Below are positions 7,769 through 58,606 of a stretch of DNA of 64,000 nucleotides, one piece after another (the first letter of the stretch is position 1; every line of letters begins with the position of its first letter). Origin of the DNA: Desulfocarbo indianensis. GTDB lineage: Bacteria > Desulfobacterota > Desulfarculia > Desulfarculales > Desulfarculaceae. The notes beneath the pieces were generated by a model. It was not told the DNA's origin and ran no database searches. It worked only from the letters and a program-made list of their open reading frames with translations. The stretch lies in contig LBMP01000001.1 of assembly GCA_001184205.1 (NCBI GenBank), forward strand, positions 1,082,001 through 1,146,000. Reading direction: 5' to 3'. Made by a program: the position numbers and the translations under genes.

Positions 7769-8758
7769 ATGTTCGCGCTGTTGGCCAAAATCAGCCGCAA
7801 TCTGGTGACCGCCATCCCCGTCATGATGCTGGCCGGCTTCCTGTATGGCTGGCTGGGCCAGGCCGGCTGGCTGCGGGAACTCATAATCCCCTTCACCTTT
7901 CTCATGGTTTACCCCATGATGGTGACGCTCAAGATCAAAAAGGTTTTGGAAGGCGGCGACCTGAAGGCCCAGGTGCTCACCCAGCTCATCAATTTCGGGC
8001 TGATACCATTCGTGGCCTTCGCCCTGGGGCGCGCTTTTTTCCCGGATCAGCCCTATTTGGCCCTGGGCCTGCTCCTGGCCGGCCTGGTGCCCACCAGCGG
8101 CATGACCATCTCCTGGACCGGCTTTGCCGGCGGCAACCTGGCGGCGGCGGTGAAGATGACCGTGGTGGGCCTCACCCTGGGCTCCCTGGCCACGCCCTTT
8201 TACGTGAAATATCTCATGGGCGCCGAGCTGGAGGTGAACCTGGCGGCGGTGATGCGCCAGATCGGGCTGATCGTGTTTTTGCCCATGGTTGCCGGCTTCG
8301 CCACCCAAAGGCTTTTGGTGAGGCGCTTCGGCGAGCAAGGCTTTCAAAAAACCTGGGCCCCGCGCTTCCCCGGCCTTTCCACCCTGGGGGTCTTGGGCAT
8401 CGTGTTCATCGCCATGGCCTTGAAGGCCCCCTCCCTGGCCGGCGATCCCCAACTGCTGGTCTACCTGCTGGCGCCCCTGGCCTTGCTCTATGCGCTCAAC
8501 TACGCCCTGGGCACGGCGGTGGCCAAGTTGGCCCTTCCCCGCGGCGACGGCATCGCCCTGGTCTACGGCACCGTGATGCGCAACCTCTCCATCGCCCTGG
8601 CCGTGGCCATGGGGGCCTTTGGCGCGGCCGGCTCCGAGGCCGCCCTGGTAATCTGCGTGGCCTATATCCTCCAGGTGCAGTCGGCCGCCTGGTACGTGCG
8701 TTTTTCCGACCGGGTTTTCGGCCCGGCTTCGGCCGAAGCCCCGGCCGCGGCCCATTGA
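7769..8758 (+). CDS. BASS-family permease, resembling ACR3 arsenite exporters
   Basis: A 329-residue integral membrane protein with about ten hydrophobic helices. It belongs to the bile acid:sodium symporter superfamily, and its order of motifs resembles ACR3 (MVYPMMVTLKIKKV, then a long TM with GLLLAGLVPTSGMTISWTG, then ALKAPSLAG). The ACR3 cysteine expected in the conserved Pro-Cys segment is replaced here (PTSG), so arsenite transport is doubtful and another anion or organic acid is possible. It is coupled to the upstream dsrE-like gene. An ArsC-like gene exists 3 kb away but in a separate transcription unit. Confidence 0.75.
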   Translation: MFALLAKISRNLVTAIPVMMLAGFLYGWLGQAGWLRELIIPFTFLMVYPMMVTLKIKKVLEGGDLKAQVLTQLINFGLIPFVAFALGRAFFPDQPYLALGLLLAGLVPTSGMTISWTGFAGGNLAAAVKMTVVGLTLGSLATPFYVKYLMGAELEVNLAAVMRQIGLIVFLPMVAGFATQRLLVRRFGEQGFQKTWAPRFPGLSTLGVLGIVFIAMALKAPSLAGDPQLLVYLLAPLALLYALNYALGTAVAKLALPRGDGIALVYGTVMRNLSIALAVAMGAFGAAGSEAALVICVAYILQVQSAAWYVRFSDRVFGPASAEAPAAAH

Positions 8759-8914
8759 TTTCTTCCTCCGTGGGCGCCGGCGGGTAATAGCCAGACTCTC
8801 ACCACCGCCCGCCGGCGTCCTTCCCGTAAAACCAGGGCCGAGGCGCGCCCGCGCCCTCATGGCCGGGCCCCCCTCTGGGGGAGCGCCGGCCTTGCAACGC
8901 GCGGGCCGGGCTAC

Positions 8915-48501: not shown

Positions 48502-48912
48502 TTAAATTGAGCCGTGTTTGTCGGGATTGGAAAGCCACCTGTCTTTTTGCAGGATCACCTGGTCGTGATGGATGATCTTCAACAGGATTCGGCACTTGCT
48601 CTCTGGAGGTAAGCTAAGGGAAACCTTGCATAACGTGACGGGAAGATCAGGACGGAGCATTGTCTTGGCGGATTGCCTGCTGATGCTTTGGCCGCCTTTA
48701 CCGAATTTGAAGACAGACAGGGAATAAACAACAGATAGCGACTTGCTGGAACGGCAGACCGGCTGAATGGTTATTGATCCGTTTGACTCTCTGGTGGTTT
48801 TGATGGTCGCCGACAATTCCGCCGAGTCTTCAGCCAGCGCATAGGCTGGACAAGCTAACCCGTATAACAAAAAAACGCCTGCCAGCGCGATATGGCCAAT
48901 CGATAAAGCCAT
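48502..48912 (-). CDS. CsgC/CsgH-like curli chaperone
   Basis: A 136-residue exported protein (signal peptide FLLYGLACPAYALA). The mature part aligns by eye with E. coli CsgC: GQSISRQSAKTMLRPDLPVTLCKVSLSLPPESKCRI matches the CsgC segment with GQS...QxxTLxLPANQPIALTKLSLNISPDDRVKI, and the end QKDRW matches LSQQW. CsgC and its relative CsgH hold back amyloid assembly of the curlin in the periplasm. Its cysteines (VCRSS, LCKV, SKCRI) parallel the CsgC redox features. It lies just downstream of csgD on the same strand, in a curli locus, which supports the call. Whether it is closer to CsgC or CsgH is unclear. Confidence 0.8.
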   Translation of the reverse strand: MALSIGHIALAGVFLLYGLACPAYALAEDSAELSATIKTTRESNGSITIQPVCRSSKSLSVVYSLSVFKFGKGGQSISRQSAKTMLRPDLPVTLCKVSLSLPPESKCRILLKIIHHDQVILQKDRWLSNPDKHGSI

Positions 48913-48956: not shown

Positions 48957-49646
48957 TTATTTATTGAGCACTATATTTTCATTGGCCCAAATGACGGCTT
49001 TCACGCGATTGGGCACGCCGATTTTTCTATATATATTCTGCACGTGCACCTTCACCGTATAGGGACTGATGAAAAGCTTTTCCGCGATATCGCCGTTACT
49101 GGTGCCTCTGGCGATCAAGGCGAGTATTTCCATCTCGCGCGGAGTTAAATTATTTTTCGCCTCTTGGATGGTCTTTTTTCGAGACCACCTTTCGGTAAGG
49201 AATTTAGACATGGCCTGGCGGGGGAACCACATATGCCCTTCCGCAACGGTTTTAATGGCCTTGATCATGTTTTGGGATGGTTCCCGGTCGTACAAGAGGC
49301 CTCTGACGCCATAAGATATCCATTTTTTCAGGCGCTTCTCGGAGTGGAAATTAAAAATAATGGCGGGGGTGCCATTAAGCGCGCCTAAAAAATTCTCGCA
49401 TTCGTTGGTTAGCTTGTCAATCACGTCGCCGGAATAGTTATCCAGCATCAAAACGTTGGGTTTATCTCTATCGCTGGAAGAAAAAATTTGCATGGATTCG
49501 TCAGCCGGACCTTCTGAGACCTGAAACCCGGCTTGCAGGTTTAGATAAAAACAGATCAGCTCATTGACCATTCTCTGCGAGCCGGTTATGTGCACCTTAA
49601 CGCTAGAGGATTTCGGCGGTTCTCGGCGGCTTTCTAACTTTTTCAC
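48957..49646 (-). CDS. csgD: CsgD-like LuxR-family master regulator of curli
   Basis: A 229-residue protein like CsgD. The N-terminal receiver-like half (VHITGSQRMVNELICFYL, NVLMLDNYSGDV, YGVRGLLYDREPSQNMIKAIKTVAEGHMWFPRQAMSKFL) resembles CsgD, including the GHMWFPR segment (CsgD has GELWLPR). The C-terminal HTH is LTPREMEILALIARGTSNGDIAEKLFISPYTVKVHVQNIYRKIG. It would activate the csgE-to-curlin operon. It starts at GTG with GGAAGAG just upstream. It lies between the EF-hand gene and the chaperone gene, 44 bases before the latter, so the two may be co-transcribed. A second CsgD-like gene lies at 61709. Confidence 0.88.
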   Translation of the reverse strand: MKKLESRREPPKSSSVKVHITGSQRMVNELICFYLNLQAGFQVSEGPADESMQIFSSSDRDKPNVLMLDNYSGDVIDKLTNECENFLGALNGTPAIIFNFHSEKRLKKWISYGVRGLLYDREPSQNMIKAIKTVAEGHMWFPRQAMSKFLTERWSRKKTIQEAKNNLTPREMEILALIARGTSNGDIAEKLFISPYTVKVHVQNIYRKIGVPNRVKAVIWANENIVLNK

Positions 49647-49924: not shown

Positions 49925-50518
49925 TCACTCTTGATACTTTTTTTCCGCTTGCGGCTTATTAGATTCCTGCTGCATGATTTTCATGGCTTGATCGTCCGAT
50001 TGTTGGAGATCTTTTTTAAGCTGCATGCGCTTGGCCCGCTCCATGGCCACCCTTCTATGCTTCAATATGATTTCTTCCATGGTGACGTGTCCGTCATTGT
50101 CCAAGTCTTTGTTTCTGAAATTCTTGGTTTCAAATGAGAGATGTTCTGCAAGGCTTATTTTCCCGTCCCCATCGGTGTCAAGCGCGGGGGACAAAGAATA
50201 TTGCACCGAAACGATGGCCGCGAATTCTTCGTCGCTCATGGTAATCGCGCCGGATTCCCGCAATTTGCTGACCCGCTCCATTTCCCGCTCGGATATTTCC
50301 CGGGAGGTGATATAGCCATCGCCGTTCAGATCATTGGTGGTGAACACGCCCTTTTCCCAGGCCAGATGCTCGGCAAGGCTCACCTTGCCGTCGCCGTTCA
50401 AATCCACCTTTTCCGGCACGCGCAAACCGGATGCGGGGGGGCGATCCTCGGCGCCCACCACGCCGGCCAAACTCGCCAGCAAAAAGCAAAAAAGCAAGGT
50501 CGAAATTAATTTGGACAT
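49925..50518 (-). CDS. Exported EF-hand calcium-binding protein in the curli locus
   Basis: A 197-residue protein with a signal peptide (LLFCFLLASLAGVVGA) and four EF-hand loops: DLNGDGKVSLAEH, DLNGDGYITSREI, DTDGDGKISLAEH and DLDNDGHVTMEEI, each with the Asp-x-Asn/Asp-x-Asp-Gly pattern. A charged Gln/Lys tail follows. It should bind calcium in the periplasm or at the cell surface. It lies right after the CsgA-like gene with the same orientation and a strong hairpin between them, so it is probably part of the curli regulon. I know of no standard curli gene with this architecture; a role in calcium-dependent fibre assembly is a hypothesis. Confidence 0.84.
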   Translation of the reverse strand: MSKLISTLLFCFLLASLAGVVGAEDRPPASGLRVPEKVDLNGDGKVSLAEHLAWEKGVFTTNDLNGDGYITSREISEREMERVSKLRESGAITMSDEEFAAIVSVQYSLSPALDTDGDGKISLAEHLSFETKNFRNKDLDNDGHVTMEEIILKHRRVAMERAKRMQLKKDLQQSDDQAMKIMQQESNKPQAEKKYQE

Positions 50519-50578
50519 TTTGCTCACTATCCTTTTCAACTAAGTTCGCTGCGCGTCCTATCCGTCTTTTTGGGTTTG

Positions 50579-50606
50579 GGGGCGGGCCCCCGGAGGGGCC
50601 CACCCC
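50579..50606 (-). terminator. Strong hairpin between the CsgA-like and EF-hand genes
   Basis: GGGGCGGGCCCC and GGGGCCCACCCC can form a 12-bp stem with one mismatch and a four-base loop. On the minus strand no U-run follows, so it is more likely an RNA stabiliser or attenuator that raises curlin over EF-hand expression than a full terminator. Confidence 0.5.
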
Positions 50607-50640: not shown

Positions 50641-51492
50641 CTACCGGCAACCGGCGCCAGCGCAAGTGGGCAGGGAGGCGGTGAAGCAATTGTTGGCCTG
50701 GGTCACGTAGGCCGAGTGCACGCCGCCGCCAGCCTGGATGATCACGCTGTCGTTCATGTAGCCGATCTGATTCACGACGGCGTTGTTGTAGCCGCCGAGG
50801 GAGCAAAAGCCATCGGTCTGGGAGACCAGGCTGAAGTTGCCGAAGCCGCCCTGATAGACTTGGGCGTTGTTGATGCCGCCGTCCTGCAGGATGTCGTTGT
50901 AGTTCAGGTCGCCGATCTGGGTCACGGAGGCCACGTTGACGCCATAGCCGTCTTGACGGATGAAGCTGGCGTTGAAGGAACCGGACTGGGTCACGCCGGC
51001 CGTATCGTTCGTGCCGGTCTGCCAAATCGAGGACCAGTTGCCGTCGCCCCACTGGTACACGTAGGCGGCGTGGGCGCTGTAGCCGTAGTGGCCATCGTTC
51101 TGGTAGATGAGGGAGGTGTTCTGGTAGTAGTCCTCAGTGAACATGGGGAAGTTGAGGCTCTTCACGTAGGGGGCGGTAAACTGGAACGCCGTGTAGCTCA
51201 GGTAGCAGCAAGGCGAATTCTGGTACACGGAGGCCAGGTCCGATCCGAAGTCGGTTCCCTGATCGATCCAGGAGAAGCTCTGGTCGTTGAGCTGGGTGAC
51301 GAAGGCGGTCGAGAAGGCGCCGGTTTGTTCGATCATGCTCTCGTTGCGGGCGTTGAAGGGCTGCCACACATAGGTCTCAGCCGCGCCCACCACGACCTTC
51401 CAAGGCTGCCAATAGTTGGCGGTGTTGGCGAAAGCGGTGCCAGCCATCAACAGGACGGCCAGGAGGGAAAGTCCGAATAGTATTCTCTTCAT
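50641..51492 (-). CDS. csgA: CsgA-like curlin, major amyloid subunit candidate
   Basis: A 283-residue exported protein (signal MKRILFGLSLLAVLLMAGTAFA) with repeated curlin strands of the type QxGxxN: SVTQIGDLNYNDILQDGGINNAQVYQ, FSLVSQ, AVVNQIGYMNDSVIIQ, SAYVTQ. An N-terminal half has more aromatic residues (AETYVWQPFN, SPCCYLSYTAFQF) than E. coli CsgA. Unlike typical CsgA it has six cysteines, including CC and a C-terminal TCAGAGC. ATG 51492 has AAGGAG seven bases upstream. It follows the second curlin by 123 bases. Roles as major or minor subunit are inferred from order. Confidence 0.8.
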   Translation of the reverse strand: MKRILFGLSLLAVLLMAGTAFANTANYWQPWKVVVGAAETYVWQPFNARNESMIEQTGAFSTAFVTQLNDQSFSWIDQGTDFGSDLASVYQNSPCCYLSYTAFQFTAPYVKSLNFPMFTEDYYQNTSLIYQNDGHYGYSAHAAYVYQWGDGNWSSIWQTGTNDTAGVTQSGSFNASFIRQDGYGVNVASVTQIGDLNYNDILQDGGINNAQVYQGGFGNFSLVSQTDGFCSLGGYNNAVVNQIGYMNDSVIIQAGGGVHSAYVTQANNCFTASLPTCAGAGCR

Positions 51493-51615
51493 AAGAAATC
51501 TCCTTTTTTTCATTCATGTTTCGTTGGTTTTGGTTGTTAGCGGTTGTTATGTCCTTGCCTCTTCATCGACCCTCAAGCAGAGGCATCACCTCCTTTCCCC
51601 TTGAACTCGTTCCGG

Positions 51616-52638
51616 CTATTTGTGGGTAATCGTGACGTTGGCATACACTTCGTGGCCGAACTGCTTCACGACTACCGGCACGTTCGCGTTGTGGACCAGG
51701 TTGGCCACGTTGCCGTCGCCGAATTGCTGGATCCACGCCAGGTTGGACACGGTCTGGACAATGGAGGCCTGGTTGGCGTTGCCCAGTTGATCGATGAAGG
51801 CGTCTCCGCCGCTGGTCAGCTGGTTGATCGAAGCCCAGTTGTAACTGCCGAACTGGTTGATGCCGGCCAGATTGCCGCTGCCCACCAGTTGGCTGATGCT
51901 GGCGATATTCCCGGTGGCGGCCCAATAAGAGGAGCCTTGGGTGATGCTCCCCACTTGATGCCAGCCGCCCTGCTCGATGAGCGCCCGGTTGAAAAGTCCG
52001 TTTTGCTCCAGGTCGGCCGAGTTGCTCCAGCCGGTCTGCTCGAGACCCGCGGCGTTGCCGTGGCCGCGTTGTTGGATGGCGGCCTTGTGGCCCCAGTCGC
52101 CCTGGGCGAGATTGGCGCAGTTGTTATCGCCCGCCTGGCTGAGATTCGCGTCCTGCTTGACGCCGGCCTGATCGATGAAGGCCGTGTTGTCGTCGCCCTG
52201 CTGCTTGATGGCGGCCCAGTTGCCGCTGGACAACCCAGCCACGCGCAGCTGCGGCGTTCCCTGCGTTATCTCGGCGAGATTGCCTTGGCCCTTCTGCTCG
52301 AGACCCGCGCGGTTGTACTCGCCTTCCTGGGTCACCCGCGCCTGGTTGTGCGTCAGCCCTTCGCCGGTCTGCTCAATGGAAAGCTCCTGGTTTGAGCCCC
52401 ATTGGCGGACCGTGGCGAAATTCTTGCCCAGCTCCTGGCTGATCTCGGACACGTTGAAGCTTCCGTTTTGTTCGACCAGGGCAAAGGCGCTCTCGCCGCT
52501 TTGCTCTATGCGCGATTGATTGACGGCGTAGCCGAGGCTTGTCTCCGGCGTATCCGCCGCGGCGGGCAACGCCAAACCCGTCGTGAGAGCGCAGAGCATC
52601 AATACGGTGGAAACGAGCCGCCTTTGATTTCTTTTCAT
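51616..52638 (-). CDS. csgB: Long CsgB-like curlin with about twenty half-repeats
   Basis: A 340-residue exported curlin (signal STVLMLCALTTGLALPAAA), more than twice the E. coli CsgA/CsgB length. From residue 35 it has imperfect 11-residue half-repeats of the form xGxxNxAxIxQ, for example QKGQGNLAEITQ, QRGHGNAAGLEQTGWSNSADLEQ and QFGSYNWASINQ, roughly eleven full 22-residue turns. The end VVVKQFGHEVYANVTITHK is charged and non-repeat, as in CsgB anchoring tails. It lies 13 bases after csgG and has an excellent GGGAGGGAAG site. CsgB nucleates CsgA; which curlin is the nucleator here is inferred. Confidence 0.82.
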   Translation of the reverse strand: MKRNQRRLVSTVLMLCALTTGLALPAAADTPETSLGYAVNQSRIEQSGESAFALVEQNGSFNVSEISQELGKNFATVRQWGSNQELSIEQTGEGLTHNQARVTQEGEYNRAGLEQKGQGNLAEITQGTPQLRVAGLSSGNWAAIKQQGDDNTAFIDQAGVKQDANLSQAGDNNCANLAQGDWGHKAAIQQRGHGNAAGLEQTGWSNSADLEQNGLFNRALIEQGGWHQVGSITQGSSYWAATGNIASISQLVGSGNLAGINQFGSYNWASINQLTSGGDAFIDQLGNANQASIVQTVSNLAWIQQFGDGNVANLVHNANVPVVVKQFGHEVYANVTITHK

Positions 52639-52651
52639 TTCTCTTCCCTCC

Positions 52652-54346
52652 CTAACGGGCGATGTTTACGGGTTCCCACTTTTTCAAGGTCACGTTTTCC
52701 ACGGTTATGGCTTGGGCCTCCTGGCCGTCAGCCACGGCCGGCGTCGGAGTGGAGAACAGGAAGCTGGTATCAACCGGCTTGGCCTGGTCGGCCTCGGGGG
52801 GTGCGACATTGGATTCAAGACCCGAGGGTGCGGCCTTGGTTTGATTTTCCGGGGCGGTGGTTTCCTGGCTCCTGCGTTCAGCCTCCAGGCGGGCGGCTTC
52901 TTCGGCTTGGGCCTTGCGCTCAGCCTCCAGGCGGGCCGCCTCTTCTTCCTGGGCCTTGCGTTCGGCCTCAATGCGGGCGGCCTCTTCTTCCTGGGCCTTA
53001 CGCTCGGCCTCCAAGCGCGCGGCCTCCATCTCCTGGGCTTTGCGTTCAGCCTCCAGCCTGGCTTCTTCCTCTTGCTTGGCCATCAACTCGGCTTCCAAGC
53101 GGGCGGCCTCCATCTCCTGAGCTTGGCGCTCGGCTTCCAGCCTGGCCTTTTCCTCGGCCTCCTGACGGGCCGCCTCTTCCTCCTGGGCCTTGCGTTCGGC
53201 CTCCAGGCGGGCTTGCTCTTCCTGCTGGGCTTTTTGCTCGGCTTCCCAACGGGCGGCCTCCATCTCCTGGGCCTTGCGCTCTGCCTCCAATTTGGCCTCT
53301 TCGATCTCCTTCAGCCTGCGCTGGGCTTCTTCGCGCTCGGCCGTGAGCTGGGCCTCTTTTTCCGCTTGCTGGCGGGCGGTCTCGGCGCGCTCGGCTTCGT
53401 ATTCGGCTTCCGCCTGGCGAAGCTTTTCGTAAGCGGCTTCGTCAATGGCGGCCTTGCGGTCGGCGGCGGCCTGGGCCGCGGCGGCCTTGAGCTCGGCGTG
53501 GATGGCGACCCGCTGGGTCTCTTCCTGGTAGTCCTTGATGACCGGAGAGTTGATGTCCTCGGGATTGTTCAGGTACCAGAGCCCGTCCAGCACGCCTTCC
53601 ACGACCATGGCGATGACGGCTTTTTCGATGGCGGCGGCCACGCACATTTGAACAGGCTCGTTATGGCTGTACCCGGCCTCGATCTCCAGAAGCTTCTTGA
53701 AGGTAAGGAAGCGATACAGGCCCACGTCCACTTCATGGGAAAGAATGGTCTTGGTGGTGGACACGGACTTGAGAATGCGGCCGGTCCGCACGTCCACCGC
53801 CCGCAGATGCACGGTGACCTGATCCTGGCGATACTGCATGGAGCCGCCCAACCCCCAGTATTTGGCGCCGAAGCCGCCGGTCATGGTGTTGGTCTCGTAG
53901 GCGGTGATGCCGCCCTGCAGGATCACGTTGGCCCACTCCAGGGGCGGCAGGCCGTTGGCGTTTTTTTCGCCCTCGCCGTTGCGCTTGGAAGCGCTGATGA
54001 TCTTGCGTTCGGTCAAGAGGCTTTGCAGCCCGTCGCGCTCCACCGGGATGAACCAGTTGGATTTGTTCAGGGCCTCGAGCAGCATGTTGACCGCGCCCTG
54101 GGTCACCGCCGTGGAGAACGAGCTCACGTTGGGCAGCGGCTTGTACTGACCGGTCTGGTCGCGGAAGTTGTAAACGCTGACCCGGATCTTGCCCTTGGGC
54201 GCGGGCAGTGAAGTCAGTTGTTTGTAGGTATGACTTATTCTGGATACCTGTGGCGGCATGATGTCGAACTCATCCATAGGCATGCCGCAGGCGGATATCC
54301 CGGCCAGCATAACGAGCAGGCCCACGATTTTCAGCTTCTTCGCCAT
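52652..54346 (-). CDS. csgG: CsgG curli secretion pore fused to a long coiled coil
   Basis: A 564-residue lipoprotein (signal with lipobox GISAC, Cys20). Residues 20-275 are a CsgG core: [76 protein letters not shown] and [16 protein letters not shown] match E. coli CsgG closely. The family forms a nine-subunit outer-membrane channel. E. coli CsgG ends near 277 residues; here a charged helix continues for about 220 residues, mostly 14-residue heptad pairs [14 protein letters not shown], then a Pro-rich tail. The eyelet region reads [11 protein letters not shown], so E. coli Tyr51 and Asn55 are replaced and one residue is inserted while Phe56 remains. ATG 54346 has AAGGGG upstream. Confidence 0.9.
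52862..53303 (-). repeat. 42-bp tandem repeats encoding the CsgG coiled coil
   Basis: About ten copies of a 42-base unit coding for [14 protein letters not shown]-like 14-residue repeats, with one short copy of eight residues. Such direct repeats are prone to copy-number change by recombination. Confidence 0.85.
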
Positions 54347-54388
54347 GACGAACCCCTTCTTCCTTTTCACGGACCTTCCCCCAGTTCC

Positions 54389-54820
54389 TTAAGGAATGGT
54401 CGGGATGGAGATGACGGTGGTGTTATTGTTCGGAACGTCCACCACGGTGACTTCCAGTTGGGTTATTTGGTCGTTGATGGTCACCGTGAAATCGCCCACC
54501 GTAAAAGTTCCGTTGGGCAATTCCGTTGATTCTCCGAAGGCCTTCTCAACGATTCTGGATGACAAAAGGGATAATATGTTGCGGTTTAAAGTCTCCCTGA
54601 AGTCATCGAGACGGGACAACTCGTTGCTGGTGGACTCCGGATCTTTGTTGTTGTCTTGGGCCTGAGCATTGCCGAGAAGATAAGCGCCGTTTAGCGGATT
54701 GCCCCCCACAAAGCTCGGGTTGACAGGCTCCCATATCAGCTCGGTGGCAATCGCTTGGCTGGTAGTGAATAGCGCCAAGATGGCCAAGGCGATTATGCAG
54801 AAAGATATTTTTATATTCAT
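54389..54820 (-). CDS. csgF: CsgF curli assembly protein
   Basis: A 143-residue exported protein (signal IKISFCIIALAILALFTTSQAIA) with the CsgF signature right after the cleavage site: WEPVNPSFVGGNPLNGAYLLGNAQAQDNNKDP, as E. coli CsgF has [27 protein letters not shown]. CsgF lines the CsgG channel and passes the nucleator to the surface. The C-terminal half forms a beta-rich neck. ATG 54820 has GGGGAGG six bases upstream. It lies between csgE (19 bases) and csgG (42 bases) in one operon. Confidence 0.94.
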   Translation of the reverse strand: MNIKISFCIIALAILALFTTSQAIATELIWEPVNPSFVGGNPLNGAYLLGNAQAQDNNKDPESTSNELSRLDDFRETLNRNILSLLSSRIVEKAFGESTELPNGTFTVGDFTVTINDQITQLEVTVVDVPNNNTTVISIPTIP

Positions 54821-54839
54821 TTGAATCCTCCCCAGGATA

Positions 54840-55304
54840 TTAGTAACCATCGCCTTCAAGATCGTTACTTTTTTGAAATCTTTTTATTATTTCTCGTTGA
54901 AATAAGTGTCTGTGAACCTCGCTTACCGCCTGGTTGATCACGTCCTCTATCACCACGTTTCTGGCGGAGAGGAACTGCTGAAAAACCATGTCATCATCCA
55001 CAGTTATAAAGACTAGGCTGCCCCATTGCGGGTTGAATCTCTCGGTAATGACAATGGTGAATTCCGTAACGTCTGCGGGAGGAACCCAGGCGGCCACGAA
55101 ATCTTTATAAAAGTTTTGTCCCATGGGAGTTATGGTGTGATTAAGCAGCAGGCCTTCGCTCAGCAGGTCATCGTAAGACTTTTGCACCCCTTGGGAGAAA
55201 GCCAACGAGTTAAGGCATAATAGTCCAAACAAAGTAATTGTTAAAAGGGAGCACGCCTTCAGGCATTTATTGCTTGCATTATGATGAAGCAATGTGTATT
55301 TCAT
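54840..55304 (-). CDS. csgE: CsgE curli secretion adaptor
   Basis: A 154-residue exported protein (signal SLLTITLFGLLCLNSLAFS). Family pattern: LLSEGLLLNHTITPMGQNFYKDFVAAW, then FTIVITERFNPQWGSLVFITVDDDMVFQQFL, matching E. coli CsgE ([23 protein letters not shown] and ERPSARWGSWITITV). CsgE caps the periplasmic face of CsgG and brings curlin to the channel. It is the first gene of the csgEFG-curlin operon. The ribosome site is weak (AAGAA). Confidence 0.93.
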   Translation of the reverse strand: MKYTLLHHNASNKCLKACSLLTITLFGLLCLNSLAFSQGVQKSYDDLLSEGLLLNHTITPMGQNFYKDFVAAWVPPADVTEFTIVITERFNPQWGSLVFITVDDDMVFQQFLSARNVVIEDVINQAVSEVHRHLFQREIIKRFQKSNDLEGDGY

Positions 55305-56267: not shown

Positions 56268-57377
56268 ATGTCACTCGTCGCAAGCGCCCACGCGGACTTC
56301 CTTAATTGGTTGTCCAGTGAGGACTGCGTGCCGTGGCTCCGGCGGCAAGCGCGGGAACTGCTTTTCCGCGTCTCCGGGCTCCGCCTGCCGCGCGAACTTT
56401 GGCCTTATGGAGACCCTAGAGGCATGTCGGGAAGCGAACTGGATATGGCTTCGGATGAGGTGGCCAACGATTTCTGGATTTTCGTCCAGGACGTCCTGCG
56501 CGGCCGGAGCGAGGAACTGCCGCCCGAGGTCCTGGCCGGGCGGGAGGCCAGGCCGCGGCTCCTGGGGGCTTACCTGCGCAATGCCTTCATCAACCATCTG
56601 CGCGGCCAGGTCAGGCGCAAGGAGATCAGCCCGCTGCGCCATCTTTACCGGCGTCTGCGCGAGACGCTTAACAACGCGCCGGATTTTTACTATCGCGCGG
56701 CTCCCAACATGGCCTACTACAGCATGGAGAAATCTGCCCAGACCCATACGGCGCGCCTGGCCCTGGGAGCCGGCTCCTACCGCGCTTGGCCCTCGCCCTG
56801 CGAACTGGTATCGGAGCGGCAACTGGCCAGATTCAAAGGGGAAGACCTTTGCTCACTGGCCGCCCGGTTTTGGCAAGAAGCCGCCGCGCGGTTGGGAGGC
56901 GCTTATTTTCTGCCCATTTGGGAGCTGGCCGCCTATCTGGCGGATCACTACGGTTTTCTGAGCGCCGGCGAGCAGCGCTTCAGAGAGGAGTGCCAAGCGG
57001 AGATGGCCGTTAGCGAACCCACGGCGACGCCCGAGACGGGCGGCCTTGCCATGCTGGCGACCCAGCTGGTCGAGAGCTGGCCGCCCATCCGGCGCAAGGT
57101 TTTTTATTTGGCGCTGGATTCCTCGGAAACGACCTATCGGAACATCGCGGAACTGGCGGGCCTTTCCGGCGCCAGCCACGCCAAATACCACATTGACCGC
57201 GCCTGCCAGCAATTGGCCGATTTCTGCGAGACCTGGCCGGGAGTGGCGCCGCCGCCTTCGGACCGGAATTTTTGGGCCGAGTTTCTCTTGATCACGGCTG
57301 GGGTTTGTAAAAACCTGACCCAGGAGCGTCCTTCAGGGTTGAAAGGCGACCAACCTCAACCAAAGGACGGATCATGA
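56268..57377 (+). CDS. ECF-like RNA polymerase sigma factor
   Basis: A 369-residue protein, longer than the usual 180-200-residue ECF sigma factor. Residues 64-118 resemble sigma region 2, with DEVANDFWIFVQDVL and then LGAYLRNAFINHLRGQVRRKEIS (region 2.4-like DNA contact helix). Residues 262-320 resemble region 4: ATQLVESWPPIRRKVFYLALDSSETTYRNIAELAGLSGASHAKYHIDRACQQLADF, a helix-turn-helix. Between them is a long insertion of about 140 residues. It would recruit RNA polymerase to unknown promoters. It overlaps the next gene by ATGA. The family fit is moderate and no classical ECF consensus was tested. Confidence 0.72.
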   Translation: MSLVASAHADFLNWLSSEDCVPWLRRQARELLFRVSGLRLPRELWPYGDPRGMSGSELDMASDEVANDFWIFVQDVLRGRSEELPPEVLAGREARPRLLGAYLRNAFINHLRGQVRRKEISPLRHLYRRLRETLNNAPDFYYRAAPNMAYYSMEKSAQTHTARLALGAGSYRAWPSPCELVSERQLARFKGEDLCSLAARFWQEAAARLGGAYFLPIWELAAYLADHYGFLSAGEQRFREECQAEMAVSEPTATPETGGLAMLATQLVESWPPIRRKVFYLALDSSETTYRNIAELAGLSGASHAKYHIDRACQQLADFCETWPGVAPPPSDRNFWAEFLLITAGVCKNLTQERPSGLKGDQPQPKDGS

Positions 57378-58606
57378 ATTTAAAAGTGGACTCTTGGCAA
57401 ATTCAGCAGGCTTGGGAACTGGCCTGGCGGACCCGTTTCTGCCCTCCCGACCAACTGATCACGGCCGACGACCTGCCGGCCGAGGCCGTGGCGCACCTGA
57501 AATCCTGCCCCTCCTGCCGGCGGCGGGGGGAGCTTGGCAAGGCGGGCGAGGCCGGGGAAGGGCTTCCCGGCCTGGCGCGGCCGCTGGCCAAGCCAGAGGA
57601 CGCCGGGGAGGAGCTCAAGCCCGGCCAGATCAGAAGCCTCGCTCCCGGTCTGGCCGGCTGGGGCCCCAAGCACAGGTATTACGATCCGCCGGTGGTCTTG
57701 ATTCTCGAACTCTCGCCAAGCCTGCCCAACGGGGTCCTGGTGGCCCAGACCTATCACGACCCGGCCCTGATGGGGCAGGGCGACGTGGCCCTAGGCCGCT
57801 TCAGGTTCGCGGAGCCTTGGAACCTTTACACGCTGCACCGCGAAAACCTGGGACGCCTGCATGGCGAGGTCGACCAGCCAACCGTGGAGCTGGTATGGGA
57901 GGCCGGCCAAGAGGCCGCGCCCCAGGAGCCGGAATGGTCGCCCCAATTCCTTTTTCGCCAGATGGAGCTGGAGGTGGCCTGCTTCTTTTCGGCGGGAGCC
58001 GTGCTCTCCCTGATGGCCGAATACGAAAACGCGGCGGCCCTTGCCCAAGGGACCCTTTCCGCCGCCGCCGATTACCCCCTGGCCGATGGCCGCGCCCCGC
58101 TGGGCCCCGCCTGGGAGGGGGAGGCGCCGGAGGATCTGCCGGCTTGCCTGGCCAGACTGGGCCTGAAGGCGCCGCCCGCGGCGCAACTGGCCGAGCCCTC
58201 GGATATATTTTTCCTGGCCGAGCCCTCGGTGCGCAAGATGGCCCTGGCCGCGGCCAACGCCGACAGCGGGCCGCTGCTGCCGGTGATGGCTTTCCGCCTG
58301 CAGGAAGGGCGGCCGGTTTCCTTTGAATATTTGCGGGCGCGGCTGACCGATCTGGTGCGCTCGCCGCAGCTCGTCCTGGGCGGCAAGCTGACTTCCCTCC
58401 TGGAGGGCGGGGAACGCTGGCGGGCGGAGTTCCGCTGGCTGGACGAGGACGGGAAGCTGCTGAAAAGCCGGGCGGGCGGTTTCACTTGCCCCGAAGCGGA
58501 ACCGGCCAGCTTTTGGGCTTCCTTTTCGGTGGACGCCGCCAAGGTGGCTGACGTGGTCCAGAGGTTGTACGTGCGCCTTTTCAGAGTGCAGGAGAAACAG
58601 GCATGA
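57374..58606 (+). CDS. Putative zinc-binding anti-sigma factor (ZAS-like) with a large C-terminal domain
   Basis: A 410-residue cytoplasmic protein with no transmembrane helix. The N-terminus has Cys23, His41, Cys45 and Cys48: HLKSCPSC, i.e. H-x3-C-x2-C, the zinc motif of ZAS anti-sigma factors (RsrA: C-x25-H-x3-C-x2-C; here the first gap is 17). A Pro/Gly-rich linker (residues 60-95) is followed by a domain starting YYDPPVVLILELSPS and a mostly alpha/beta body ending FTCPEAEPASFWASFSVDAAKVADVVQRLYVRLFRV. It could hold the sigma factor and be the target of the protease encoded next. ATGA overlaps join it to the genes on both sides. Confidence 0.68.
   Translation: MNLKVDSWQIQQAWELAWRTRFCPPDQLITADDLPAEAVAHLKSCPSCRRRGELGKAGEAGEGLPGLARPLAKPEDAGEELKPGQIRSLAPGLAGWGPKHRYYDPPVVLILELSPSLPNGVLVAQTYHDPALMGQGDVALGRFRFAEPWNLYTLHRENLGRLHGEVDQPTVELVWEAGQEAAPQEPEWSPQFLFRQMELEVACFFSAGAVLSLMAEYENAAALAQGTLSAAADYPLADGRAPLGPAWEGEAPEDLPACLARLGLKAPPAAQLAEPSDIFFLAEPSVRKMALAAANADSGPLLPVMAFRLQEGRPVSFEYLRARLTDLVRSPQLVLGGKLTSLLEGGERWRAEFRWLDEDGKLLKSRAGGFTCPEAEPASFWASFSVDAAKVADVVQRLYVRLFRVQEKQA

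Follow-up and report, generated by a model that had tools for sequence, protein, structure and literature searches.

Curli are a model of controlled amyloid assembly. To our knowledge, the accessory set of the curli machinery (CsgC, CsgE, CsgF, CsgG and CsgH) includes no EF-hand protein, and we know of no curli machine with a calcium-gated control step. A search of the open-licence literature by title or abstract start returned no report of a curli operon that encodes an EF-hand or calcium-binding protein, and the term EF-hand has no match in the main text, as far as it was covered, of two wide curli surveys (PMC3521004, PMC10192328). The EF-hand proteins CaBP of Caulobacter (PMC13171946) and EfhP of Pseudomonas aeruginosa (PMC9132961) are regulatory according to the parts of these papers covered – CaBP resides in the periplasm, and deleting it alters the extracellular matrix. 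Those parts give CaBP three EF-hands and EfhP two, unlike the four of the protein described below, and state no link to curli genes for either.

We analyzed a 64,000-nucleotide stretch of the Desulfocarbo indianensis genome (the window; genome G000). Three csg genes and two curlin genes lie together on its minus strand and mark a csg cluster: csgE (54840-55304; PF10627, 6e-24), csgF (54389-54859; PF10614, 3.9e-36), csgG, whose product is extended at its C-terminus by a long charged stretch (52652-54370; PF03783, 1.4e-72), a CsgB-like second curlin gene (51616-52638; PF07012, 7e-33; NCBIfam CsgB 146.8 bits, below the cut-off of 165), and a Cys-containing curlin gene in the CsgA position (50641-51513; PF07012, 2.5e-10; NCBIfam CsgB 54.5 and CsgA 32.7 bits, both far below cut-off). 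Behind these, on the same strand, come the EF-hand gene, a LuxR-type regulator gene that is CsgD-like (48957-49646; GerE, 3.1e-22; best NCBIfam match CsgD at 99.5 bits, below the cut-off of 250) and the gene for a CsgC/CsgH-like amyloid chaperone (48502-48912; Pfam Tafi-CsgC 30.2 bits, cut-off 25; NCBIfam CsgH 45.7 bits, cut-off 35). The locus thus reads csgE-csgF-csgG-curlin-curlin-EF-LuxR-CsgC/CsgH. Like the curli (type VIII secretion) cluster of Escherichia coli and relatives, the window has csgE, csgF, csgG, two curlin genes and CsgD-like and CsgC/CsgH-like genes, here close together on one strand; unlike that cluster, it has an exported-type EF-hand gene between a curlin gene and the CsgD-like gene. 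The novelty lies in the addition of an EF-hand gene, probably an accessory, to a curli cluster.

A first-pass annotation, made from the sequence alone, had placed the EF-hand gene straight after csgA in the same orientation, and we found it there, starting 122 nt behind the curlin gene in the CsgA position with both genes on the minus strand. Because the CsgD-like and CsgC/CsgH-like genes follow it on the same strand, the EF gene lies inside the csg cluster. The 122-nt gap before it, which holds a hairpin, and the 278 nt that separate it from the next downstream gene count against presuming a single transcript. A simple scan, which may not fit this organism, listed no sigma-70-like promoter in the gap between csgA and the EF gene.

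The open reading frame list contains a frame at 49925-50539 (minus strand), which would encode 204 amino acids from a TTG at 50539. By our own reading the ATG at 50518, with AAAAGGA 11 nt upstream, is probably the better start, giving a gene at 49925-50518 and a protein of 197 amino acids. The strongest hydrophobic stretch of the protein is its N-terminus, which no other stretch equals by hydropathy. This agrees with the signal peptide claimed earlier – a predicted Sec signal of about the first 23 residues (50450-50518), with a cleavage site placed by eye at its VVGA end. Four predicted EF loops follow on the minus strand, DLNGDGKVSLAE (50369-50404), DLNGDGYITSRE (50297-50332), DTDGDGKISLAE (50144-50179) and DLDNDGHVTMEE (50072-50107), and all four have canonical ligands at positions 1, 3, 5 and 12. 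Four loops arose in none of 100,000 shuffles of the protein and three loops in one of 100,000, and Pfam EF-hand_5 matches it well above its curated cut-off (1.7e-14; 53 bits against 25.9). Judged by loop pattern and cut-off, the protein is a member of the EF-hand superfamily, and the first-pass description of four intact EF-hands holds.

The EF region consists of two similar halves, which agree at 20 of 37 residues, so each half represents one pair of loops. Within each pair 12 residues separate the loops, whose starts lie 24 residues apart in all three orthologues identified below, and 39 residues separate loops 2 and 3. The mature protein contains no cysteine and is acidic (32 D+E against 26 K+R). 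Its loop sequences, which are what backs the earlier description of a calcium-binding protein, indicate that it very probably binds calcium.

We found the same locus in G010, a genome from another genus of the family. There csgE, csgF, csgG, two curlin genes, the EF gene (L013 13616-14290 from its ATG), a LuxR gene and a CsgC/CsgH-like gene follow one another as in the window. The G010 LuxR protein resembles its window counterpart in having CsgD as its best NCBIfam match, below cut-off. The G010 chaperone-like protein falls just under the Pfam cut-offs (CsgH 26.1 of 27, CsgC 24.8 of 25); that of a second relative, G002, is also under both, narrowly for CsgH only (CsgH 26.9 of 27, CsgC 17.7 of 25), and both proteins match the window CsgC/CsgH-like protein (7.9e-18 for G010, 9.3e-6 for G002).

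A third EF gene occurs in G015, from a further genus of the family, whose genome is 71% complete. Its start lies right at the edge of a 4.4-kb contig, and a second contig ends directly behind csgG. The gene likely adjoins csgA there as well, an adjacency that is only likely because the contigs break behind csgG and before the EF gene. Its stop and the first bases of a GGDEF (diguanylate cyclase) gene (L014:3056-3835) overlap by 4 nt, which suggests a link to c-di-GMP control in that genome. G002 supplies the fourth csg locus of the family, with csg genes, a 794-aa curlin and a CsgC/CsgH-like gene, and a profile search of this region found no EF gene. A CsgG tree groups the three EF-bearing loci in a single clade (support 99/97) with G002 next (98/95), so that a single acquisition of the EF gene, either alone or combined with a loss in G002, is enough to explain its distribution.

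The gap between csgA and the EF gene contains a conserved feature in two genomes. In the window the csgA stop (50641-50643) and the EF start codon (50516-50518) flank a GC-rich hairpin of 12 pairs, one of them G-U, on the minus strand (50579-50606). The same gap in G010 holds a 14-pair stem, also with one G-U, and shares the 11-nt arm GGGGTGGGCCC. Among 87 loci this 11-mer occurred only in copies of the window and G010 gaps (five loci); a 10-base piece of the arm, with one mismatch allowed, occurred 13 times in the window, fewer than expected by chance. The first-pass annotation had called the hairpin strong. The stem exists and is kept in G010, where its energy stands apart from shuffles (z -3.35), but the window energy is not far from that of same-composition shuffles (14 of 200 as good, z -1.7; 16 of 200 for a longer stretch around it). 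The hairpin was rejected as an intrinsic terminator: no T-run (U-run in the transcript) follows it in the window or in G010, and it is absent from the terminator scan. The hairpin would most naturally be read as protecting the curlin message or as causing partial termination. That the hairpin sets EF expression below the curlin level, as proposed earlier, is plausible, and only plausible because the U-run is missing.

To place the EF protein among its relatives, we used it as the sole query against 40 genomes including its own; G015 matched at 125 bits, G010 at 107.6 and the next best protein at 29.3. A three-row profile of the G000, G010 and G015 proteins then matched 9 of the 20 genomes of a family survey at E 0.001. 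The three matches above 300 bits are to the sequences that make up the profile; the match that follows them (37.8 bits) is a generic EF-hand gene elsewhere in G000. Across the order csgF occurs in 4 of 21 genomes (G000, G002, G010 and G015), and the curlin repeat family occurs in the same four. A close EF homologue is thus present in three of the four csgF-bearing family genomes versus none of the other 16, some of which are incomplete (e.g., 54% and 70-71%). Weak generic EF-hand matches of 19-37 bits occur in six of these 16, in which csgF was not detected. The co-occurrence has a Fisher p of 0.0035, or 0.018 without the window genome, values that are only a guide because the genomes are related. 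Co-occurrence beyond the window genome had been named at the outset as the test of the association, and G010 and G015 provide it.

Wider searches added no close member. In a survey of 395 genomes from the phylum, with at most eight candidates scored per genome, the profile exceeded 62 bits only in G000 and G010, both of which are rows of that profile. A genome-contig collection returned no match to the window protein as a lone query; searched with the three-row alignment, it returned a 4393-base contig with the same sequence as that of G015 and five distant EF-hand proteins (L021-L025). A plasmid collection held no match to the EF protein. So far, then, three members of this gene family are known. 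Their local identity is 39-46%, and all 12 of their loops keep the ligands at positions 1, 3, 5 and 12. Between the window and G010 or G015 the EF protein is 39% identical, versus 58-70% for CsgG or CsgF, which is about the level of CsgE (36-47%) and the CsgC/CsgH-like protein (37%).

These data also bear on the possibility that the EF gene is a passenger, trapped between csg genes and encoding a general periplasmic EF-hand protein without a role in curli. EF-hand genes are common in the order: EF-hand_5 matches occur in 10 of 21 genomes, G000 has four other such genes, and this single-domain search of the order misses the csg-linked EF genes of G000 and G010. Similar proteins also occur away from csg, since none of the five genomes encoding the distant proteins has csgF and the open reading frame lists around those five genes contain no curlin-like frame, and a family of three members is small. 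A passenger would nevertheless have to have stayed next to csgA in G010, together with the hairpin, and its close homologues are confined to csgF-bearing family genomes from three genera even at 39-46% identity. We consider this explanation quite improbable. With the arrangement kept in G010 and, within the family, close homologues restricted to csgF-bearing genomes, the association of the EF gene with csg, claimed in the first-pass annotation, is well supported, and we hold with good confidence that the EF protein belongs to the csg system.

We screened csg regions outside the family as controls: seven from other families of the phylum, where csgF occurs in 9 of 395 genomes including G000 and G010; five from the class of G421 (L024, Pelomonas; csgF in 5 of 321); and five from the class of G419 (L022, Asticcacaulis; csgF in 6 of 367, five of them above cut-off). 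The profile detected an EF-hand gene in none of these 17 regions, and in none of 18 when the G002 region is included. Some regions are short (G446, 3.0 kb; G072, 9.5 kb; G431, 10 kb; G204, 11.7 kb), so that an EF gene further out might be missed, and the csg genes of the G446 region were not matched again on re-annotation. A loose single-EF-loop pattern gave one match each in frames of L016, L037, L071, L075 and L078, that of L016 falling in the curlin frame; we rejected all five as EF-hand genes, since the regions showed no second loop and no profile match. The absence of the gene from all 17 outside regions indicates that curli assembly in general does not need the EF protein and, together with its absence from G002, bears out the earlier statement that it lies outside the standard Csg set.

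To gain insight into the possible function of the EF protein, we modeled its structure. A model built from two rows was poor (pLDDT 57) and was replaced by an AlphaFold model from five rows, three of them distant EF-hand proteins, with a mean pLDDT of 77 and EF lobes mostly at 87-95 in blocks of ten. Two lanmodulin entries rank first in a Foldseek search with this predicted structure (E 4.1e-4 and 7.3e-4). VIA-align 2 likewise places three lanmodulin entries first (best Z 10.9, rmsd 2.8 over 94 residues; the others 9.7 and 9.1), followed by calmodulin at Z 8.4 and below, in a range (Z below about 13) that may reflect a common arrangement of helical proteins. Lanmodulin is an exported protein, and the genomes that encode it typically carry a lanthanide-dependent alcohol dehydrogenase (XoxF).

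We therefore weighed whether the protein might be a true lanmodulin, whose loops bind lanthanides and not calcium. Lanmodulin is its best NCBIfam match as well as its best fold match, and the 12 residues within its pairs equal the spacing of lanmodulin, for which the part of a paper that was covered gives 12-13 residues between adjacent loops and a proline as the second loop residue of one or more EF-hands (PMC11845868). The NCBIfam match, however, scores 39.5 bits against a cut-off of 135, the two pairs stand 39 residues apart and not 12-13, and proline occupies loop position 2 in none of the 12 loops of the three orthologues (L, L, T and L in the window protein). That the protein is a lanmodulin is accordingly extremely improbable. 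It is like lanmodulin in its four EF loops, the spacing within pairs, its best predicted fold match and its export signal, and unlike it in the missing Pro2, the long linker between pairs, the score below the family cut-off, a long C-terminal helix and the linkage to curli genes. Calmodulin shares the four EF-hands in two pairs; unlike calmodulin, the EF protein carries an export signal, and 12 residues separate the loops of each of its pairs, where calcium-responsive EF-hand proteins typically have about 25 according to the part of the same source that was covered (PMC11845868). The protein is thus lanmodulin-like in predicted fold and not a lanmodulin by membership.

We propose that the EF gene encodes an accessory of a lineage-specific curli cluster, a calcium-dependent protein that would act in the periplasm on curlin or CsgG, a proposal whose chances we regard as evenly balanced. 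Sec would export the protein. Beyond the signal, its N-terminus is unlike the curlin N-termini at the locus, as judged by eye against a signal that is undefined for this lineage; because no curlin-like N-terminus for CsgG was seen, the protein would stay in the periplasm, and we think it somewhat probable that it acts there. Binding of calcium at outside levels would change its conformation, and the calcium-bound form would contact either curlin subunits or the side of CsgG/CsgE that faces the periplasm, alongside the CsgC/CsgH-like chaperone. Subunit delivery would then follow outside calcium, and the hairpin behind csgA would protect the curlin message and make the EF protein scarcer than curlin. 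We are more tentative about whether the protein acts directly on curlin or on the secretion pore, to which we give somewhat less than an even chance.

An effect of calcium on curlin fibres is on record and speaks for the proposed role. In the part of one survey that was covered, calcium altered the fibre packing of one purified acidic curlin: it assembled into sheets, which the authors attribute to bridging by divalent cations, and at 30 mM calcium it gave a crust containing single fibres (PMC10192328). Against the proposed role, the same curlin still made fibrils in 10 mM EDTA, so that calcium was not needed for its assembly (PMC10192328). Alternatively, the EF protein might be an extracellular matrix protein, released at the surface, whose four calcium sites bridge curli fibres or matrix polymers or seed mineral. 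The window curlins are net negative (-13 and -14) and the mature EF protein is acidic, so calcium bridging is possible, as in the sheets and crust of the acidic curlin (PMC10192328, in the part covered). The G010 curlins, by contrast, are almost neutral (-3 and -2), and the dissimilar N-termini of the EF proteins, in which no CsgG export signal was seen by eye, argue against release. We regard a matrix role as unlikely.

The genes that follow the EF gene raise the alternative of a periplasmic calcium sensor that would feed a regulator, either the CsgD-like LuxR protein or the diguanylate cyclase, and so control curli expression. The next gene is CsgD-like in G000 and G010 and a GGDEF gene with a 4-nt overlap in G015, which would suit a regulatory role. 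Caulobacter CaBP offers a parallel, as a periplasmic EF-hand protein whose deletion raised matrix production, according to the part of that work covered (PMC13171946). The LuxR and GGDEF proteins, however, look cytoplasmic by eye, so that the signal path would miss a part, and the interval between the EF gene and the regulators contains no gene that would encode a membrane partner. By analogy with CaBP such a sensor may be conceivable here, and we rate it rather unlikely.

The proposed periplasmic accessory role has a more specific form, in which a protein of lanmodulin-like predicted fold, fixed in one csg lineage, would sense calcium and directly control curlin folding or delivery to CsgG. 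We consider such calcium gating of curli doubtful. If true, an EF protein of the csg-bearing members of three genera would offer a direct way to study the influence of external calcium on amyloid and biofilm in bacteria, and a lanmodulin-like fold would be employed outside lanthanide metabolism. If the gene is a passenger, the case is ordinary.

Other features of these loci are recorded here as separate observations. The curlin beside the EF gene (window 50641-51513; G010 L013:12613-13488) has 6-7 cysteines, several of which align between the two genomes, including two adjacent ones (CC) and a tail at the C-terminus that also contains cysteine. The C-terminal extension of the window CsgG (52652-54370) is charged and repeat-rich and spans about 290 residues. 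G010 CsgG has a similar extension, for a total of about 600 aa, and G015 CsgG (302 aa) has none; among the other 17 CsgG frames compared, those of G808 and G154 carry tails of different composition. The length of the G002 frame arises because csgF precedes csgG in the same frame – CsgF and CsgG lie there in one 451-aa open frame (L016:10664-12019), a possible fusion.

Divergent from csgE, the plus strand of the window carries genes of 369 and 410 aa (56268-58606), neither of whose products matches Pfam or NCBIfam. Both genes are kept beside csg in G000, G010 and G015 and have no match in the G002 csg region; a third protein of the divergent operon in G010 has weak Lon-type matches only, below the Pfam and NCBIfam cut-offs. 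Each of the three EF-bearing genomes also has a lone curlin gene: in G000 on a contig other than that of csg (L054, about 8030-8860; G000:C111), in G010 about 5.5 kb from csgE (L013:2986-3405) and in G015 on a small contig (L053:698-1087).
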